From IMG/VR virus record IMGVR_UViG_3300005253_000459, positions 1 through 23,702 of that record: a stretch of 23,702 nucleotides of DNA; one strand, written 5' to 3'. This DNA comes from a virus. This document shows, one piece after another, positions 1,639 through 22,947 of this stretch. Below the pieces are notes generated by a model, which ran no database searches, had not been told where the DNA came from, and worked only from the letters and a program-made list of their open reading frames with translations. The stretch's first letter is position 1, and each line of letters begins with the position of its first letter. Made by a program: the position numbers and the translations under genes.

Positions 1639-2571
1639 ATGGCGAGAGCCAAAAACAAACCACGGAAACCCAAGAAACCTAACCCCACCCCAAAGGTCAA
1701 GCAGATAGAAGCTGCTCTGACCAAACCGGTAGACCCGTTGATGGAACTCAAGGATGTATTGACGGTTGATATGGTCAAGAAGTATATCTGCCCTACGGCT
1801 AACGATACAGAGATAGGGCTATTCCTGACCATAGCTAAGTCTTATAAACTCAATCCATTTAAGCGGGAGATTTATCTGGTGATTTATGATGGCAAGAACG
1901 GCAGAGAGGTTTCCGTCCAGGTAGGTTATGAGGTTTATCTTAAACGAGCAAGCCGAATCCCTGCCTATGCTGGGTTCAAGGCCTGGACTGAACCGAAAGA
2001 TGCTAAAATACCAGTCAAGGCTTGCGTCAAGGTATTCCGCAAGGACTGGAAAGAACCATTGGAACATGAGGTTGATTTTGATGAGTTTGTCAAGATGAGG
2101 TGGGATAAAGAAGCAAGGAGACTTGTCCCTACTAAGTTCTGGAAGAAGATGCCTAAGAGTATGATTAAGAAAGTGGTAATTTCTCAGGCGTTCCGCCAGG
2201 CGTTCCCTGACGAGATGGGTGGACTACCGTACATACAGGAAGAAATTCACCCCAAAGAAAACATCAAGGATGCCGAGGCTACGGTAACACCTGCCGAGAC
2301 CCATGTTAAGATGCCGGAACGCACGGACAAGTCTGTCAAGCCCAAGCCGGAAGCAAAGAAACCAGACCCACCTAAAGAACCGGCCAAGCCAGTGCAACCA
2401 GCAGTGAAGTATGTTTCACCTGGTCAGATTGAAACCTTAAAGGGTTTATGCGTGGCTAAGAACCTTGACCCTGATGAGATTGCTCATTCTTATTTCGGGG
2501 CAAATTCTGTTAAGACATTGCCGGCTAATAAGGCAGGTATGTTCATGAACGAGGTGAGCAAGATAAAATGA
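1639..2571 (+). CDS. RecT/Bet-family single-strand annealing recombinase
   Basis: Anneals complementary ssDNA during phage recombination and replication restart, normally with a partner exonuclease. Core residues about 35-215 carry the Bet/RecT pattern: 'NPFKREIYLV', 'VQVGYEVYLKRASR', 'PTKFWKKMPKSMIKK' and 'QAFRQAFPDEMGGLPY'. A Lys/Pro-rich N-terminal tail (KPRKPKKP) and a Pro/Lys-rich linker (about 220-260) flank it. The last ~55 residues, beginning 'YVSPGQIETLKGLCVAKNLD', look like a separate small helical domain. AAGGAAGG precedes the ATG at 1639. The stop overlaps the start of the nuclease gene (ATGA), the usual annealase-exonuclease pairing. Length 310 aa is slightly long because of the extra tails. 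Confidence 0.88.
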   Translation: MARAKNKPRKPKKPNPTPKVKQIEAALTKPVDPLMELKDVLTVDMVKKYICPTANDTEIGLFLTIAKSYKLNPFKREIYLVIYDGKNGREVSVQVGYEVYLKRASRIPAYAGFKAWTEPKDAKIPVKACVKVFRKDWKEPLEHEVDFDEFVKMRWDKEARRLVPTKFWKKMPKSMIKKVVISQAFRQAFPDEMGGLPYIQEEIHPKENIKDAEATVTPAETHVKMPERTDKSVKPKPEAKKPDPPKEPAKPVQPAVKYVSPGQIETLKGLCVAKNLDPDEIAHSYFGANSVKTLPANKAGMFMNEVSKIK

Positions 2572-3230
2572 AAGAAGTTAGGATAGTAAAAATAACTGAT
2601 ACTGATTATCAGTTCACCGAGAACAACGTGCCTTATGTTTATCCCAGGGTAACATCTATCATTAAAGAGTTCGGCATTAATGACCTAAGTAAAGTGCCAC
2701 CGGATGACCTTGAAAAAGGCAGGCAACTTGGTAGTGCCGTACATTCGATGATAGAACTCTACAATAAGGATTTCCTTAATGTGGATTCCCTTGATGTAAA
2801 ATTGCCACCGTATCTTGAAGGCTACAAGAAGTTCCGCGCCGAAGTGTCATGGGCTAAAGAATTTGAATCAACACCCCATGAACAAGAAGTTAAATTAATC
2901 GTGGAAACAGAAGACCCTGAAAACGACTCCACCGGTATTTTTATTTACTCACATAGGTGGGGTTTTGCTGGCACGCTGGACGATGTTTTTAAGCCTCAAA
3001 TAATAACTGATTACAAGAGCGGTGTTCTGGGTAAGGAAGGTATGAAAGCAGCAGCCTTGCAGACGGCAGCTTATTCTATCGGGTATAAAGAACTATACCG
3101 TAAATCTATCAAGAAAAGATTTACGGTGCATCTAAAACCAGGTGGGTACAAGATACATGAGTATAACCAAGAAAAAGATATGTACGATTTCTTGGCTCTT
3201 ATGACTGTCCATCACCTAAAAAGAAAGTAG
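2568..3230 (+). CDS. PD-(D/E)XK (RecB/Cas4-like) nuclease, RecT partner
   Basis: A probable exonuclease producing ssDNA for the annealase encoded just upstream, with which it shares an ATGA overlap. Motifs fit the PD-(D/E)XK superfamily: 'GSAVHSMIE' with H59, acidic 'HEQEV' near 105, 'GFAGTLDDV' with D138, 'ITDYKSG' with D148 and K150 (the D-x-K signature), and 'QTAAY' at about 165-169 (the QxxxY-type motif). No helicase motifs or Cas4-type iron-sulfur cysteines are visible. At 220 aa it is a minimal stand-alone nuclease. The fold assignment is fairly firm; 5'-3' polarity is inferred from the pairing. Confidence 0.82.
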   Translation: MKEVRIVKITDTDYQFTENNVPYVYPRVTSIIKEFGINDLSKVPPDDLEKGRQLGSAVHSMIELYNKDFLNVDSLDVKLPPYLEGYKKFRAEVSWAKEFESTPHEQEVKLIVETEDPENDSTGIFIYSHRWGFAGTLDDVFKPQIITDYKSGVLGKEGMKAAALQTAAYSIGYKELYRKSIKKRFTVHLKPGGYKIHEYNQEKDMYDFLALMTVHHLKRK

Positions 3231-4815: not shown

Positions 4816-5082
4816 ATGAAACATAAACTAAAAGGGAATTATGAGAGGGAAAGAGAGGTTTGGCTTGATGGTGAACGGCTTGACCCGAAGCCAAGCCAGA
4901 AATATCACAATCACAGTCCTGATGGTTTTAATTGGGGCTATTTAGGTTCGGGATGCGCCCAATTAGCATTAGCGATAATGCTTAAATTAACAGGGGAAGC
5001 CGTTGGCTACCAAATGTTCAAAGAGAAGGTCATAGCAGGATTACCTCAAGGGGAATCTTTTGAAATAGAATTTGAATTATAA
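4816..5082 (+). CDS. DUF6166 domain protein
   Basis: AAAGAAAGGAAGG lies upstream of the ATG at good spacing. The protein has the DUF6166 signature in order: a D/E-G-x-x-L-D-P-K-P-S-Q-K stretch, then 'YHNHSPDGFNWGY' (residues 30-42) and 'GSGCAQLALAIMLKLTG' (44-60), with a C-terminal beta strand 'GESFEIEFEL'. This small domain is widespread in phages and mobile elements but has no established function. Length (88 aa) is normal for the family. Confidence 0.78.
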   Translation: MKHKLKGNYEREREVWLDGERLDPKPSQKYHNHSPDGFNWGYLGSGCAQLALAIMLKLTGEAVGYQMFKEKVIAGLPQGESFEIEFEL

Positions 5083-9378: not shown

Positions 9379-11043
9379 ATGGAACTAAATAAAATACACC
9401 AAGGCGATACGCTGGTCGTATTAAAGACTATGCCGGATGATTATGTTGACTGCGTTATGACCAGCATACCTTATTGGGGACTTAGAGACTATGGCGTAGA
9501 AGGTCAATTAGGATTAGAGAAAACACTTACTGAATATATAGACAAGACGCTATTGATTACTGCCCAGCTTAAACGAGTGCTTAAACCGACTGGTGTGCTG
9601 TATTGGAATCATGGAGATTGTTACGGTGGCAATCCAGCGTCTGGTACGCAATCCGGGATAGGACAAAGAGGAAGCATTAAAAGACAACCTAAAAATGGTA
9701 TTATTCCCAAATGCCTATCGATGCAAGGCTACCGTCTAATCCTGCGTATGATAGACGAGCAGGGTTGGACACTACGCAACACTATCATATGGAATAAGCC
9801 GAACCATATGCCATCATCAGTTAGGGATAGATACGCTAATGGATACGAACCTGTCTTTATGCTGGTAAAACAACAGAAATATTGGTTTGACCTGGATGCG
9901 GTGAGGATACCACAGCTATTCTCCGATGATACAAATAGACCAAGTGGCAAAGTAAGGTCGACTGGCCGAATAGAAGGGGCAAGATTTGCTGGTGGACAAA
10001 GGATATTAAATTCCGCAGGTAAGAACCCAGGCGATGTCTGGACGATAACAACCCAACCATTCCCCGAAGCCCACTTTGCCACCTTCCCAGAAAAGCTATG
10101 CGAGAAGCCGATACTATCAAGCTGTCCTCAATGGATATGCCAGAAGTGCGGTAAGGCGAGGGAGAGGATTAGCGAATATGGATTAGATATTCACCATTAT
10201 CAAAAAGATAGACCAGTAAAAATGACGAACTGGGATACATTTCCAATGGCCAGAGGAACAAAAACCGTTAATACCATCGGCTGGACAGACTGCAAGTGCA
10301 AAAACTTGACATGTGCGGTATGTAACGCTATAATATCAGACAAGGAGGTAAAAGAATATGCCACACAAAGATTACGAAAAGAGAAAGGAATACCAAAGAA
10401 ATTACTGGAGGGAACATTACAGGGGCAAGCACACAAAGAAATATCCTTTGAAAACCTGCGTGATTTGTGGGAAAGATTTTTACGGAAGGAAATCCCAGAA
10501 GTGTTGCAATCGGAAATGCGGGGTTCAGTGGCAAATCAAGCGAGGGCGGCACAATGCCTTCCCCAAGGGCAAGCATTCCCCAAATTACAAGGGCGGGACA
10601 TTCAACAAGAACGGGTACAAAATAATACTAATTCAGGGGAAAAGATTAATGGAGCATCGGTGGATAATGGAAAAGCACATCAAACGAAAATTACAAGCAT
10701 GGGAAGAAGTTCATCACAAGAACGGCAAGAAAGCCGACAACAGGATACAGAACTTAGAGATAGTTCAGAAGAAAACCCATCAAGGGAAAATGCTTTGTCC
10801 TTTATGCAACGGGTGGTTCAAGATAAAATAAGATGTTCTAAGTGTAAATCTGCTATAAAACTAATTCCCGCCGGCTGGAACGCTGGCATAGTCCTTGACC
10901 CGTTTGCTGGTGCTGGCACAACCTTAGTCGTAGCCAAGAAGCTACACCGTAACTATATAGGTATAGAACTTAATCCAGAGTATATTAAATTAGCTGAGAA
11001 GCGGTTGTACAATACGATAGTAAACCAGGAATTGTTTGAATGA
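9379..11043 (+). CDS. Beta-class DNA methyltransferase (N4-C or N6-A), interrupted by nested HNH gene
   Basis: Transfers methyl from SAM to an exocyclic base nitrogen in DNA. Motif IV is near the N-terminus (TSIPYW, residues 28-33) and motif I near the C-terminus (DPFAGAGTT, 507-515), the permuted beta order. Motif IV is unusual: most relatives have S/T-S-P-P-Y. A zinc-like 'CQKCG' and 'DCKC' (305-307) precede the interruption. Residues about 309-495 are a low-complexity Gln/Arg/Ser/Glu-rich stretch produced by reading the nested HNH gene in another frame; without it the enzyme would be about 365 aa, normal for phage enzymes. 'WNAGIVLDPFAGAG' then resumes normally. Overlaps the ParB-like gene by 8 nt. 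Target site unknown. Activity depends on whether the insert is tolerated or removed. Confidence 0.85.
   Translation: MELNKIHQGDTLVVLKTMPDDYVDCVMTSIPYWGLRDYGVEGQLGLEKTLTEYIDKTLLITAQLKRVLKPTGVLYWNHGDCYGGNPASGTQSGIGQRGSIKRQPKNGIIPKCLSMQGYRLILRMIDEQGWTLRNTIIWNKPNHMPSSVRDRYANGYEPVFMLVKQQKYWFDLDAVRIPQLFSDDTNRPSGKVRSTGRIEGARFAGGQRILNSAGKNPGDVWTITTQPFPEAHFATFPEKLCEKPILSSCPQWICQKCGKARERISEYGLDIHHYQKDRPVKMTNWDTFPMARGTKTVNTIGWTDCKCKNLTCAVCNAIISDKEVKEYATQRLRKEKGIPKKLLEGTLQGQAHKEISFENLRDLWERFLRKEIPEVLQSEMRGSVANQARAAQCLPQGQAFPKLQGRDIQQERVQNNTNSGEKINGASVDNGKAHQTKITSMGRSSSQERQESRQQDTELRDSSEENPSRENALSFMQRVVQDKIRCSKCKSAIKLIPAGWNAGIVLDPFAGAGTTLVVAKKLHRNYIGIELNPEYIKLAEKRLYNTIVNQELFE
10306..10334 (+). promoter_or_regulatory. 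Perfect consensus promoter inside methyltransferase gene
   Basis: TTGACA (10306-10311), a 17-bp spacer and TATAAT (10329-10334): exact consensus in both hexamers at optimal spacing. It lies at the left edge of the inserted segment, 23 nt before the HNH start codon. Transcription would start near 10341, leaving a very short leader that holds just the Shine-Dalgarno. The sequence ATGTAACGCT next to the -10 resembles the spacer of promoter P2. Confidence 0.78.
10358..10831 (+). CDS. HNH homing-type endonuclease nested in methyltransferase gene
   Basis: A free-standing endonuclease of 157 aa in the +1 frame relative to the enclosing methyltransferase. It has a strong RBS (AAGGAGGT, 10342-10349) and its own consensus promoter. 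Domains: basic N-terminus, zinc-finger-like Cys at 34, 37, 50 and 54, a 'GTFNKNGYKIILIQGKR' strand region, then the HNH core 'EEVHHKNGKKADNRIQNLEI' with H119, H120, N128 and N132 and the final His at about 141. This is the HNH_3 type common in phage homing endonucleases. A final 'CPLC' lies at 147-150. It probably cleaves near its insertion site in uninterrupted alleles, promoting its own spread; the target is inferred. All key residues look intact. Confidence 0.88.
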   Translation: MPHKDYEKRKEYQRNYWREHYRGKHTKKYPLKTCVICGKDFYGRKSQKCCNRKCGVQWQIKRGRHNAFPKGKHSPNYKGGTFNKNGYKIILIQGKRLMEHRWIMEKHIKRKLQAWEEVHHKNGKKADNRIQNLEIVQKKTHQGKMLCPLCNGWFKIK

Positions 11044-11752: not shown

Positions 11753-12408
11753 GAGATAATACTTCTGACCAAAAGGTTTATCGGGAAATATTCATCAAGA
11801 AAGTCTATGAGAAACATGGGTTCAAAATTGATTCGGGCGAATCATGGATTGACCTGGGTGCTTATATAGGGTTTTTTTCTGCTTATGCCCAATCCCGTGG
11901 TGCGATTATCAAGAAAATATATGAACCTTTCGCTGAGAACATCCCGTTTATTAAAGACAATCTTAAGCAAAGCTGCGAGGCTATAATACCTAAATGCGTT
12001 ACAGCCAGGGGTGATGGCAAGCAAGCCTTTTATATCTGCAAAGACGGGAACTACCAGAGGAATACAACTATCAATCATTACAAACGCAAGGAAATGATTA
12101 CGAGATTGGTAGATAGCGATGCATTCGGTGATATTCTTTTTGATGATTGCTGTGTGAAAATGGATATAGAAGGAAGCGAATTGGCTATTATAGACGAATG
12201 CCATCCAACCTTCAAAAAGATAAACAAGATGGTTTTAGAGTATCATACCGACAAGGATAATTTATTAGAGAATTATTATCGGCGGGTTAAGATACTTGAG
12301 AAGTATTTTGCTTATGTTAAGTATGATAGGTTGAAACAGAAGGATGGTTCAACCAGAGGCGCATTAAAGATATTTCCCAGTGGGCGTTTAATCTATTGTT
12401 GTAATTAA
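11743..12408 (+). CDS. FkbM-type SAM-dependent methyltransferase
   Basis: Class I methyltransferase. The SAM-binding motif is 'WIDLGAYIGFFS' (35-46); the FkbM hallmark 'VKMDIEGSE' lies around residues 139-147, followed by 'MVLEYH'. FkbM enzymes methylate hydroxyl groups on sugars, polyketides or lipids, so a phage copy could modify a glycan, a nucleotide derivative or a product of the neighbouring radical SAM enzyme. It overlaps the ParB-like gene by 10 nt and has little Shine-Dalgarno, suggesting coupled translation. 221 aa is a normal core length. Substrate unknown. Confidence 0.8.
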   Translation: MHLRDNTSDQKVYREIFIKKVYEKHGFKIDSGESWIDLGAYIGFFSAYAQSRGAIIKKIYEPFAENIPFIKDNLKQSCEAIIPKCVTARGDGKQAFYICKDGNYQRNTTINHYKRKEMITRLVDSDAFGDILFDDCCVKMDIEGSELAIIDECHPTFKKINKMVLEYHTDKDNLLENYYRRVKILEKYFAYVKYDRLKQKDGSTRGALKIFPSGRLIYCCN

Positions 12409-18051: not shown

Positions 18052-18260
18052 TGAGTTTAGCATACGGCCACATCAGGATTGATTACGAACCGCATCCAGG
18101 GTCTACTATCCAGAACGTTTGTAACGAGGTCACCGCGCTATCAAAGAAGAAGAACGTTGTCGTTGAGTTTGTGCTTAATGGTGTACGGTTGAAGGCATAC
18201 CCGATTACAGAACCAAGTGACCTAATGGATAAGTACCATGAAGAAATTGAAGATAACTGA
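18051..18260 (+). CDS. Hypothetical protein (69 aa)
   Basis: The ATG at 18051 overlaps the previous stop and has GGAGAGG upstream. The pattern of a helix ('TIQNVCNEVTALSKK') then strands ('VVVEFVLNGVRLKAYP') and a C-terminal 'DLMDKYHEEIEDN' resembles small phage proteins of unknown function with a conserved 'F-x-x-N-G-V' core. It overlaps the sigma gene by 23 nt. Confidence 0.55.
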   Translation: MSLAYGHIRIDYEPHPGSTIQNVCNEVTALSKKKNVVVEFVLNGVRLKAYPITEPSDLMDKYHEEIEDN

Positions 18261-18777
18261 TTACCTTGGCCTGGTGAAGTATCACGCAGGCAGATTATTC
18301 CGGCGTACCCCAGCCAACGTTGCCTATGATGATTTGTTCGCAGCCGGACTTGTTGGCCTGAACGATGCTATAAAGAAATACGATGTTAAGAAGAACGATA
18401 ACTTTAAGGCGTATGCTACCGTAAGGATTTGTGGTGCTATGATTGATGAGATGCGGGAAATGTCTTGGCTGACAAGATGGTATAGTGATAAGCATAAAAA
18501 GACAGGTTTCGCTGTTAGGGAAATGCTTACTTATAGCATGGTGTTTGAAAATCCGGTATCGGTAACTAAGCAAGGATATATGTTAGGCTTGTCGGCTGAC
18601 CTTGAGAGGTCGTTTAATAAGTTAAGTATGAGAGAAAGAACTATCTTACGGATGTATTACCATGATGGAATTATTATGAAAGATATTGCTAAACTATTTG
18701 GTATAACCGAGGCAGCGATAAGCCAGGCTCATAAACGGGCTGTTGGAAGCCTTAAACTAATGATGCGTGCGGGGTAA
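18238..18777 (+). CDS. Phage-encoded sigma-70 family factor (FliA/SigB-like)
   Basis: Directs RNA polymerase to selected promoters. Region 2: 'YDDLFAAGLVGLNDAIKKYD' (25-44), 'FKAYATVRICGAMIDEMRE' and 'MSWLTRW' (to about 81), the RIRGAMLDELR-type signature of FliA/WhiG/SigB factors. Region 4: 'LSMRERTILRMYYHDG' and 'MKDIAKLFGITEAAISQAHK' (about 127-170), a complete HTH. The region between is short and region 3 appears reduced. At 179 aa it is shorter than FliA (about 240 aa). Its place between TerL and the structural genes fits late-gene control, possibly of the portal region. No anti-sigma gene is seen. Confidence 0.82.
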   Translation: MKKLKITDYLGLVKYHAGRLFRRTPANVAYDDLFAAGLVGLNDAIKKYDVKKNDNFKAYATVRICGAMIDEMREMSWLTRWYSDKHKKTGFAVREMLTYSMVFENPVSVTKQGYMLGLSADLERSFNKLSMRERTILRMYYHDGIIMKDIAKLFGITEAAISQAHKRAVGSLKLMMRAG

Positions 18778-20566: not shown

Positions 20567-20594
20567 TTGACAGGACGTAAGCTACGACCATAAT
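20567..20594 (+). promoter_or_regulatory. Putative promoter P3 of intergenic RNA
   Basis: Perfect TTGACA (20567-20572) and CATAAT (20589-20594, 5 of 6 consensus) with a 16-bp spacer. The upstream and spacer bases (TTTCCTTGACAGGACGTAAGC) match the pattern in promoters P1 and P2. The spacer contains a CGTA-AGC-TACG inverted repeat. Transcription would start near 20601. Confidence 0.65.
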
Positions 20595-20600
20595 TAAATT

Positions 20601-20806
20601 ATATGACATTAGCCCTTTACTTAAAGTTTGGGGTTTGTATAGGTTTCGGTCGCTGAACCCTTAATCAGCGACTAACATAATTATATATAAAGGTTATATG
20701 ACGTAAAGATAGTTGCCGATAGAATAGTAAGACCAATCACGCGGATAGCGGGAACACCGAGCCGAGTGACTAATACCATAACGGTATTTGTTGCTTGGCT
20801 TTTTTT
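20601..20806 (+). ncRNA. Candidate small non-coding RNA or portal leader (~205 nt)
   Basis: No convincing gene lies in this stretch; it runs from the predicted start of promoter P3 to a strong intrinsic terminator. Visible structure: an 8-bp perfect hairpin GTCGCTGA / TCAGCGAC (20649-20656 with 20665-20672), whose loop ACCC could pair with GGGT at 20631-20634 as a pseudoknot. The terminator hairpin ends it. The segment repeats part of its own upstream sequence (CGAC..CATAATTA..TTATATGAC). I recognise no tRNA, tmRNA, 6S or known riboswitch. It could be a trans-acting phage sRNA or an attenuating leader for the portal gene. The start coordinate is approximate. Confidence 0.55.
20760..20806 (+). 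terminator. Strong Rho-independent terminator
   Basis: AGCCGAG (20760-20766) pairs with CTTGGCT (20794-20800), continued by TGAC with GTTG, one T-T mismatch, and AATACC with GGTATT around loop ATAAC (20778-20782): 17 pairs in all including three G-U pairs. Seven Ts (20800-20806) follow. It ends 6 nt before the portal ATG, so transcription entering from upstream must read through to express the portal. Confidence 0.8.
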
Positions 20807-20811
20807 ATTAT

Positions 20812-22947
20812 ATGAAGAAGAAAAATAAAAAGGCTTCCCGAATCAAATCTATTATCCGGTATCGTAAACCCAGGCCGGATAAACCCACTCCACAACAGAC
20901 TGCGTATGTTGACCCGTTCTATGGTACACGCAAAGGCATAGGCACACTGCCGGCTGACTTATCCTTTTTCCAATCTCTGCGGTTAAGGTTGGAAGGCAGT
21001 AACGAAGTAACCAGGCCATACGAGCAGCACGCATGGGTCAGGGGTTGTGTCAATACCATAGCCAATAATATTTCTGGTGTGCCGTTCAAGCTGTTTACCG
21101 GTGAAACCAAAAACCCAAGCGAAGTTGAAACAGGCGAACTGTATGACTTGTTCCAGAACCCGAACCCGTTAATGACCAAGACGCAGCTATGGCAAGCGAC
21201 AATGATTTATCTGGAAATAAAAGGCGAATGTATCTGGCTCAAGGATATGCCCAAAGGCAAAGAGGATAATGTTGCTGTTGTTCCTTTAGGGATATATCCG
21301 AGAGACCCAGTGAACTTTGAGCCGATTGTTAAGAACGATGTATTCGTAGGCTGGATGTATAAGGATGGCAAGGAAGAAACTCCGTTGATGCTTGCCCAGG
21401 TAATTCAATTCAAATACTTCAATCCATATAATTATTATCGTGGTCTGTCACCGCTGTCTGCTGCCATGATGGGTGTCAATCAGGATTGGAACGCAGCCCG
21501 ATACAATTTAGCGTTCTTTGAAAACTCTGCTGACCCAGGTGGAATTATAACCTATGACCCAGGCGCGAACAAAGAAGGCCTGACCGATGAACAGCGTACT
21601 GCCATAAGAGAGAATTGGGAAAACCGGCACAAGGGGGCTTCACGGGCAAAACGAATTGCTATTTTAGAAGGTGGATTAAAATACCAGCAGACCGAGGTGA
21701 GCCATGTTGATATGCAGTTCCTTGACCAGCGCAAGTGGAATCGTGAAGAAATAATGATGGTTTACGGAGTTAATAAGTTTGCGATGACTATTTACGAGGA
21801 CTTAAACTTTGCCACGGCTAATGCTGCTGCAAAGCAGTTATGGATTAATACTTTAATTCCCAAGATGAATTATCTTGATGACGTATTAGAATCCAAGTTC
21901 TTTAAGTACATAGATAACGGGAAGGTATGGAGTGAGTTTGATACGTCAGACATAAAGGCCTTGCAAGAGGACTTCAATAAAAAGATTGAGACCGCGCATA
22001 AGATGTGGCAGATGGGATTCCCACCTAACGCTATTAATGATAGATTGGAATTAGGAATGCCGAAATTAACGTGGGGCGATACCGTATTTGTGTCTATTGC
22101 TCAAGTTCCGGCTGAAAGTTTATTAGGGGCAACACCTACATCAACAGAAGAAGAATCAATCAAAACAAAACAGAACACGGCTATAGACTATGATAAGTTC
22201 TGGGTCAAATACGTTGCGAAGATATTAGACCCGAATGAAAAGAAGTTCCAAAACAGAATGAAGTGGTATTTTTATAAGTTAAGGACAGACCAGCTTGCAC
22301 GGTTAGCTGATGCAGAGAAAACAATAAAAGCAGCCGTAGCCGAGAAGTCAATACATAAGGTAGAGGCTTTCGAGGTTGACAGCATCCTGTTTGTTGAGGA
22401 AGAATGGGACAAGAAACTGAAAACAGCGACCCGTCCGTTATACGAAAACATTATGATAGCTTCCGGCGAAGAATTAGCCAACGAGTTAGGTGGCCTGTTT
22501 CAGTTTGATTTGACTGACCCAGCTATGCTACGATTTATGAATAAGAGATTATCTAAAATAGTTGGGGTCAACGATACTATCAGGAAACAATTAAGACTAA
22601 CCTTGATGGATGGCATAGTAGCCAAGGAAACAATCGGCGAATTACAGAACAGAGTTAGAACGGTATTTAACTTTGCGTCAAACCGTTCATTGACTATTGC
22701 CAGAACCGAGACGGCCACGGCATCAAGTGGTACGAGATTTCTGGCAATGAAACAGGAAGGTATTGAATTTCATAGGTGGGTGACAGCGGGTGATGAACAC
22801 GTCAGAACGTTACACAGAAACCAAGGCATTGTTCGGGTAGGCCAGAAGTTCCCTAATGGTTTGCTTGCCCCGTCTGACCCTAATGGTAGTCCAAGTTTGG
22901 TAATAAATTGTAGATGTATCGCAGTAGCAACACAAAAAAAAGAATAG
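20812..22947 (+). CDS. Portal protein fused to Mu-F/SPP1-gp7-like head morphogenesis domain
   Basis: Forms the dodecameric portal for DNA entry. I chose ATG 20812 (711 aa); TTG 20788 in the same frame lies in the terminator hairpin, and neither has a Shine-Dalgarno. Portal features: 'AWVRGCVNTIANNISGVPFK', 'LFQNPNPLMTKTQLWQ', 'YRGLSPLSAAMMGVNQDW' and 'FFENSADPGGIITYDPG', typical of HK97/lambda-type portals (about residues 50-400). Residues about 600-711 add 'IARTETATASSGTRFLAM', 'WVTAGDEHVRTLH' and 'NCRC', the SPP1 gp7/Mu F head-morphogenesis signature usually encoded by a separate gene. The fusion explains the large size. Confidence 0.88.
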   Translation: MKKKNKKASRIKSIIRYRKPRPDKPTPQQTAYVDPFYGTRKGIGTLPADLSFFQSLRLRLEGSNEVTRPYEQHAWVRGCVNTIANNISGVPFKLFTGETKNPSEVETGELYDLFQNPNPLMTKTQLWQATMIYLEIKGECIWLKDMPKGKEDNVAVVPLGIYPRDPVNFEPIVKNDVFVGWMYKDGKEETPLMLAQVIQFKYFNPYNYYRGLSPLSAAMMGVNQDWNAARYNLAFFENSADPGGIITYDPGANKEGLTDEQRTAIRENWENRHKGASRAKRIAILEGGLKYQQTEVSHVDMQFLDQRKWNREEIMMVYGVNKFAMTIYEDLNFATANAAAKQLWINTLIPKMNYLDDVLESKFFKYIDNGKVWSEFDTSDIKALQEDFNKKIETAHKMWQMGFPPNAINDRLELGMPKLTWGDTVFVSIAQVPAESLLGATPTSTEEESIKTKQNTAIDYDKFWVKYVAKILDPNEKKFQNRMKWYFYKLRTDQLARLADAEKTIKAAVAEKSIHKVEAFEVDSILFVEEEWDKKLKTATRPLYENIMIASGEELANELGGLFQFDLTDPAMLRFMNKRLSKIVGVNDTIRKQLRLTLMDGIVAKETIGELQNRVRTVFNFASNRSLTIARTETATASSGTRFLAMKQEGIEFHRWVTAGDEHVRTLHRNQGIVRVGQKFPNGLLAPSDPNGSPSLVINCRCIAVATQKKE

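Follow-up and report, generated by a model that had tools for sequence, protein, structure and literature searches.

A candidate phage small RNA from an RNA family linked to the PDC-M04 candidate defence system, and its possible role as a decoy antitoxin

Type III toxin-antitoxin systems (ToxIN, CptIN and TenpIN) and AbiF/RCd22 place an RNase-like protein beside a short pseudoknotted RNA that has its own transcription signals. The AbiF-associated ncRNA is a proven RNA antitoxin, which neutralises its toxin (PMC12373285). Solitary phage copies of a defence-system RNA, present without the proteins, have been described as pseudo-ToxI in PhiTE (PMC3475682) and as the Racr anti-CRISPR RNAs (PMC10651486). 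In phage P1, the genes rlfA and rlfB are non-essential (PMC10695390); RlfA is described as having an RNase H fold and as a relative of the NamA toxin (PMC3710099), and an RNase H fold is predicted for DUF3800 as well (PMC10910872). The candidate defence system PDC-M04, as listed in PADLOC (PADLOC-DB 2.0.0), consists of proteins only, and in the literature searched we found no RNA component of it described. Rfam holds ncRNA families named after DUF3800 genes (DUF3800-VIII, RF03075; DUF3800-I, RF02969; DUF3800-IX, RF02968). The DUF3800 RNAs were reportedly defined in a paper of 2017.

The RNA described here is encoded in an IMG/VR virus record (IMGVR_UViG_3300005253_000459), and the whole 23,702-nt stretch that was analysed is referred to as the window. 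Its kin are RNAs that lie beside the PDC-M04 genes, next to one subfamily of PDC-M04B (PDLC04359). Compared with type III systems, PDC-M04 has two proteins, DUF3800 and one with a predicted colicin D/RelE-like fold, and its RNA is usually a single unit without tandem repeats, placed 3' of the genes. The window RNA resembles pseudo-ToxI and the Racrs in being an RNA without cognate proteins, but the defence system is a different one, and here the RNA may function as a mimic. The P1 proteins RlfA and RlfB belong to the same families as those of PDC-M04, whereas the RNA motif beside rlfB differs from the window motif. Rfam DUF3800-VIII lies immediately 3' of the window-type motif in SPbeta and phi3T, and the Rfam DUF3800 families are distinct from it in that no Rfam model matches the motif.

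The window cassette and its RNA motif

The cassette in the window begins with a sigma70-type promoter (Table 1), one of the two best among 42 promoter-like sites between positions 12000 and 23702; its hexamers are the consensus -35 and near-consensus -10 that the preliminary description had pointed out. Transcription is predicted to start near 20601. The distance from the -10 element to the conserved motif is 17 nt, and the same spacing is found in a defence-locus copy from Sutcliffiella (L294). At the other end lies an intrinsic terminator, which a simple terminator scan missed because the stem is long and mismatched. The preliminary description gave it a 17-pair hairpin and seven Ts; the seven Ts are there, and 18 pairs with one mismatch make up the hairpin in the predicted fold. 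Only one place in the window combines a promoter with at least 11/12 matches and, 60-350 nt further on, a hairpin of 14 pairs or more with a T-run; none of 150 Markov-1 simulations produced such a combination.

No ORF of at least 30 aa is present on the + strand within 20567-20806, in agreement with the earlier statement that no good ORF separates the two signals, and the only ORFs overlapping the cassette are a 20-aa GTG ORF and a TTG-extended portal frame. The 207-nt transcript has a predicted folding energy of -59 kcal/mol, against a mean of -44.1 for shuffled sequences (z -3.4; 0/200 shuffles folded as well). From the sequence, we infer that the cassette would yield a non-coding RNA of about 207 nt. 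The segment between motif and terminator has no homologue in a blastn search against all loci gathered here (best E 0.3), and outside the conserved motif a blastn search against phages matched only a weak 30-nt terminator stretch of the window RNA.

Several other features of the window were recorded. The portal ATG (20812) directly follows the terminator T-run, with no Shine-Dalgarno sequence between them (20800-20814). A gene for a phage sigma70-family factor with regions 2 and 4 (18238-18777) lies between the terminase and portal genes. A DNA methylase gene (9379-11043) contains an HNH endonuclease ORF (HNH_3, E=3e-7; 10358-10831) in a different reading frame, and the methylase frame itself is open throughout the HNH insert.

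Table 1. Coordinates of the promoter, terminator and RNA elements in the window, and sites of a second RNA motif in other loci. R1 and R2 are the covariance models described in the text.
Feature	Sequence	Position	Strand	Details
Sigma70-type promoter	TTGACA-N16-CATAAT	20567-20594	+	11/12 consensus matches; -35 at 20567-20572, 16-nt spacer, -10 at 20589-20594
Conserved RNA motif (first 67 nt of RNA)		20608-20674	+	69.9 bits, approximate E=7e-19 (R2); 76.4 bits (R1)
Stem P1	GCCC/GGGU	20612-20634 (20612-20615 with 20631-20634)	+	changes on both sides in 4/4 outer pairs
Mini-hairpin inside P1	ACU/AGU	20619-20621 with 20625-20627	+	2/3 pairs changed on both sides (42 sequences)
Pseudoknot	GGU/ACC	20642-20659 (20642-20644 with 20657-20659)	+	paired in 100% of 42 sequences
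Hairpin P2	CGCUGA/UCAGCG, loop ACCCUUAA	20651-20670 (20651-20656 with 20665-20670)	+	4/6 pairs changed on both sides
Phage-specific segment		20675-20759	+	between motif and terminator; without detected homologue
Intrinsic terminator		20760-20806	+	hairpin 20760-20800, seven-T run 20800-20806
Second RNA motif, L002 (SPbeta)		4877-4965		
Second RNA motif, L357 (P1)		near 2990-3020	reverse	
Second RNA motif, L351		near 1895-1922		
Second RNA motif, L355		near 3720	reverse	

The motif consists of a 4-bp stem P1 containing an inner 3-bp hairpin, a linker (AAAGGUUU), and a 6-bp hairpin P2 whose loop takes part in a pseudoknot. Family members have in common the inner hairpin ACU-UAU-AGU, the linker CUACAAAGGUUU and the P2 loop ACCCGUAA. 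The window copy contains every pair of the family structure, has a single change in the linker (AUAGGUUU), and extends P2 by three pairs. In 19 sequences, 97% of the cells are paired, compared with 28-39% when the partners are slid. In 42 sequences, 97.9% of paired cells are kept, with many compensatory changes, and 12/16 pairs vary on both sides, a number reached in 0/500 shuffles; the counts for P1 and P2 lean towards the P1/P2 structure, to which A7 had been fitted, while the pseudoknot lies outside the model. Compensatory changes in the pseudoknot (UA to CG or GC, and GC to AU) account for five cells, for example GGC/GCC in L366. All four helices, including the pseudoknot, are supported by compensatory changes. 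The preliminary description had proposed both the stable internal hairpin (P2) and a possible pseudoknot, and it named the absence of covariation or a conserved ORF as grounds for abandoning its reading; both helices covary among homologues, and no conserved ORF was found. In seven homologues, the P2 hairpin with its U-run is itself the terminator.

Rfam 15 gave no match for the window, either at the gathering threshold or at E up to 10, and none for the motif in the defence-locus copies, which bears out the remark that the RNA could not be assigned to a known family. An earlier description of the exact motif may exist, preprints lying outside our literature search. We also considered a self-cleaving ribozyme or riboswitch; no known class matched, and linkage to defence genes fits the contexts better.

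Linkage to PDC-M04 and phage copies without its proteins

A search for distant DNA similarity matched about 54 nt of the RNA in SPbeta-group phages, where it lies between yonN and yonK (83% identical), and in the jumbo phage KLEB27-3 (79% identical). The SPbeta copy of the motif is at SPBc2 59471-59537, on the minus strand. Pattern scans of viral and bacterial contigs, together with the covariance model R1, brought the family to about 40 diverse members, with true members at 29 bits or more and chance matches at 24 or less. A second model, R2, was built solely from ten RNAs of PDC-M04 defence loci; it aligns to the window over its whole length (1-67) and also recovers all other RNA-only members. 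E-values from both models are approximate, and many members come from metagenome contigs without known hosts. Besides phages, the RNA occurs in bacterial chromosomes, in prophages and possibly on one plasmid; its surroundings include defence genes, tRNA clusters, lysis genes, gaps, a permuted tmRNA and the SPbeta yonN-yonK gap.

In Sutcliffiella (L294), Clostridium (L300, L308), a Latescibacterota MAG (L291) and prophages (L028, L287), the RNA adjoins two genes, one of them matching Pfam DUF3800 (E down to 1e-16) and the other coding for about 150 aa. PADLOC assigns the pair to PDC-M04A (1e-74) and PDC-M04B (3e-54). Seven clear members on bacterial contigs were found by a pattern blind to neighbouring genes; five of the seven adjoin DUF3800, and four of these also adjoin PDC-M04B. 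Of the bacterial copies, one (L319) is without a PDC-M04 neighbour, and in L307 the RNA is present with only a DUF3800 fragment and no PDC-M04B. Conversely, when viral contigs were searched with the PDC-M04B protein, the RNA was found in all five loci retrieved, at 53-250 nt; three were known from the RNA search and two (L365, L366) were new. L366 carries two tandem copies of the RNA, and on this contig the DUF3800 model fell short of E 0.001. PDC-M04B is rare (2/398 Bacillota genomes), and therefore the linkage with the RNA is not due to chance. A type I restriction-modification operon on a Phyllobacterium plasmid encloses PDC-M04, and the RNA there is convergent and has diverged (22 bits with R1, 31.6 bits with R2). 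The RNA is convergent to the PDC-M04 proteins in some loci, and it has its own strong promoter in 5/9 defence loci, where 0.36 would be expected. Both the RNA family and its linkage to PDC-M04 are well supported. The central idea of the earlier interpretation is supported, namely a dedicated small non-coding RNA transcribed from its own promoter to its own terminator; the link to a DUF3800 candidate defence system had been missed.

The closest structural match to the predicted PDC-M04B (pLDDT 87) is the colicin D tRNase domain (Z 5.7, a value that is not decisive alone; rmsd 2.8; 84 residues), followed by the RelE, YoeB, HigB and BrnT toxins, which is suggestive of an RNase of colicin D/RelE fold. 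Foldseek alone returned nothing for PDC-M04B below E 0.001. ToxN-like folds are absent from the fold-match lists, an absence that does not exclude a ToxN fold. Membership of the PBECR family was also considered; PDC-M04B had no Pfam, PHROG or NCBIfam match of weight. The DUF3800 model, built from five sequences, was poor (pLDDT 67). P1 RlfA and RlfB match the PDC-M04A and PDC-M04B profiles at 1e-95 and 1e-51.

The complete genomes of SPbeta, phi3T and KLEB27-3 carry the RNA without its cognate proteins, as our computational searches show. DUF3800 is absent from these three, from the complete genome of BUCT082 and from almost every other RNA-only viral contig that was searched; the only places where it was detected are four contigs carrying a PDC-M04 locus and one bacterial MAG. 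PDC-M04B is absent from SPbeta, phi3T, KLEB27-3 and 16 RNA-only contigs. Neither DUF3800 nor PDC-M04B (model PDLC04359) was found in the window record, a 23.7-kb fragment of a genome that could encode the proteins elsewhere. Of the 16 unpaired positions with a conservation of 90% or more among the defence-locus copies, the RNA-only copies also keep 13. Most RNA-only copies other than the window copy have no obvious promoter of their own.

Some RNA-only copies have other RNAs for neighbours. In L283, the intervening sequence of a permuted tmRNA gene (1721-1935; RF04321, 47.9 bits) holds a full copy of the motif (1767-1832). Large tRNA-carrying phages (L032, L051, L068, L329, L340) have further small RNA-like modules 3' of the motif, which end in a conserved type of terminator (CCCCNAGUAAG..ACUGCUNGGGGUUUUUU); these modules had no Rfam match in the loci scanned. 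The phage-like contig L295 has two skipping-rope RNAs (RF02924; 1514-1621 and 2311-2426) besides its RNA-only copy, and a different contig of the MAG from which it comes bears a complete PDC-M04 locus, RNA included. A second RNA motif consists of UAGCUCAUCUGCC..GGCAGAAGGAGC and a hairpin after it; this motif is convergent to PDC-M04B genes of another subfamily, namely P1 rlfB and genes in a Bacillota genome and on a Rhizobium plasmid. In SPbeta-type phages, the second motif lies just 5' of the motif described here, and Rfam DUF3800-VIII lies just 3'. We considered whether the SPbeta gap holds independent RNAs; only one terminator-like site was found there, and the elements are therefore modules of a longer stretch and not separate units.

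Candidate roles of the RNA

We propose, with a probability of roughly 0.55, that this RNA serves as antitoxin in a type-III-like protein-RNA system and that phages with the RNA only carry a decoy or substitute antitoxin. The 5' domain of the window RNA belongs to the family whose members accompany the PDC-M04 genes as their RNA component. Where the locus is complete, the RNA would bind one or both proteins and hold the RNase in check in the manner of type III RNA antitoxins, if the RNase is indeed toxic. In the RNA-only phages, including the window phage, the RNA may act as a decoy or substitute antitoxin against PDC-M04 of the host or of a rival phage.

The RNA could instead be an activator, guide or sensor of PDC-M04, with phage copies competing by forming dead complexes as the Racrs do (PMC10651486). 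This precedent, and the predicted RNase H fold of DUF3800 with its links to ncRNAs and Cas12a2 loci, give the idea some substance; we consider it rather unlikely, because PDC-M04B resembles RNase toxins of toxin-antitoxin systems in its fold match, and because an RNA with its own strong promoter in over half of the defence loci examined, at times convergent to the proteins, is what is expected of an antidote made in excess. A regulatory or structural RNA with a role in the phage itself, either a small RNA with mRNA targets or a component that serves tRNA/tmRNA clusters, which PDC-M04 has recruited or senses, appears quite improbable. RNA-only copies do lie within 500 nt of a tRNA more often than expected (7/30, against 1.6, the loci being partly non-independent), and one is placed inside a permuted tmRNA; but the protein-first search showed constant linkage to PDC-M04, the phage contexts are otherwise unrelated, and no conserved unpaired seed exists outside the structural core.

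Loss of function is also a poor explanation of the phage copies. If they were left over from PDC-M04 loci that had decayed, or had been spread as RNAs by recombination, we would not expect the conservation of pairs and unpaired positions described above, with its many compensatory changes, across diverse phages that have no protein remnants, nor a promoter and terminator on the window copy; even with one locus (L307) that keeps the RNA beside a broken DUF3800 gene, we hold this to be very unlikely. We give almost no weight to a leader attenuator or antitermination site controlling the portal and head genes, the alternatives raised in the preliminary description. The position of the window RNA directly upstream of the portal gene prompts the idea, and three homologues (L334, L328, L326) are near terminase genes, yet other homologues lie beside defence genes, tRNAs or lysis genes or in gaps, four relatives of the window's portal (L367-L370) lack the RNA, and P2 doubles as the terminator in several homologues. 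A BoxA-like antitermination sequence (GCUCUUUAC in L068) was likewise set aside, since such a function does not suit the contexts and several members use P2 itself as terminator.

The antitoxin and decoy reading can be widened. It is about an even bet that RNA decoys are widespread in phages, from SPbeta to the large tRNA-carrying phages, that they disarm the colicin D-like RNase of DUF3800 systems of the PDC-M04/RlfAB type, and that the 1.7-kb yonN-yonK gap of SPbeta is a composite of several such decoys. The RNA would supply the missing RNA component for PDC-M04 and for the long-unexplained rlfAB genes of P1, and it offers a possible reason for several 'DUF3800' RNAs that stand in Rfam without a known function. 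With the second motif taken into account, each PDC-M04B subfamily is predicted to go with a single RNA type, and RNA-only phages to carry mixtures of them. The 67-nt covariance model can be used to find more members in any phage genome, and the proposal predicts that phages of unrelated lineages would escape PDC-M04 by carrying the RNA alone.
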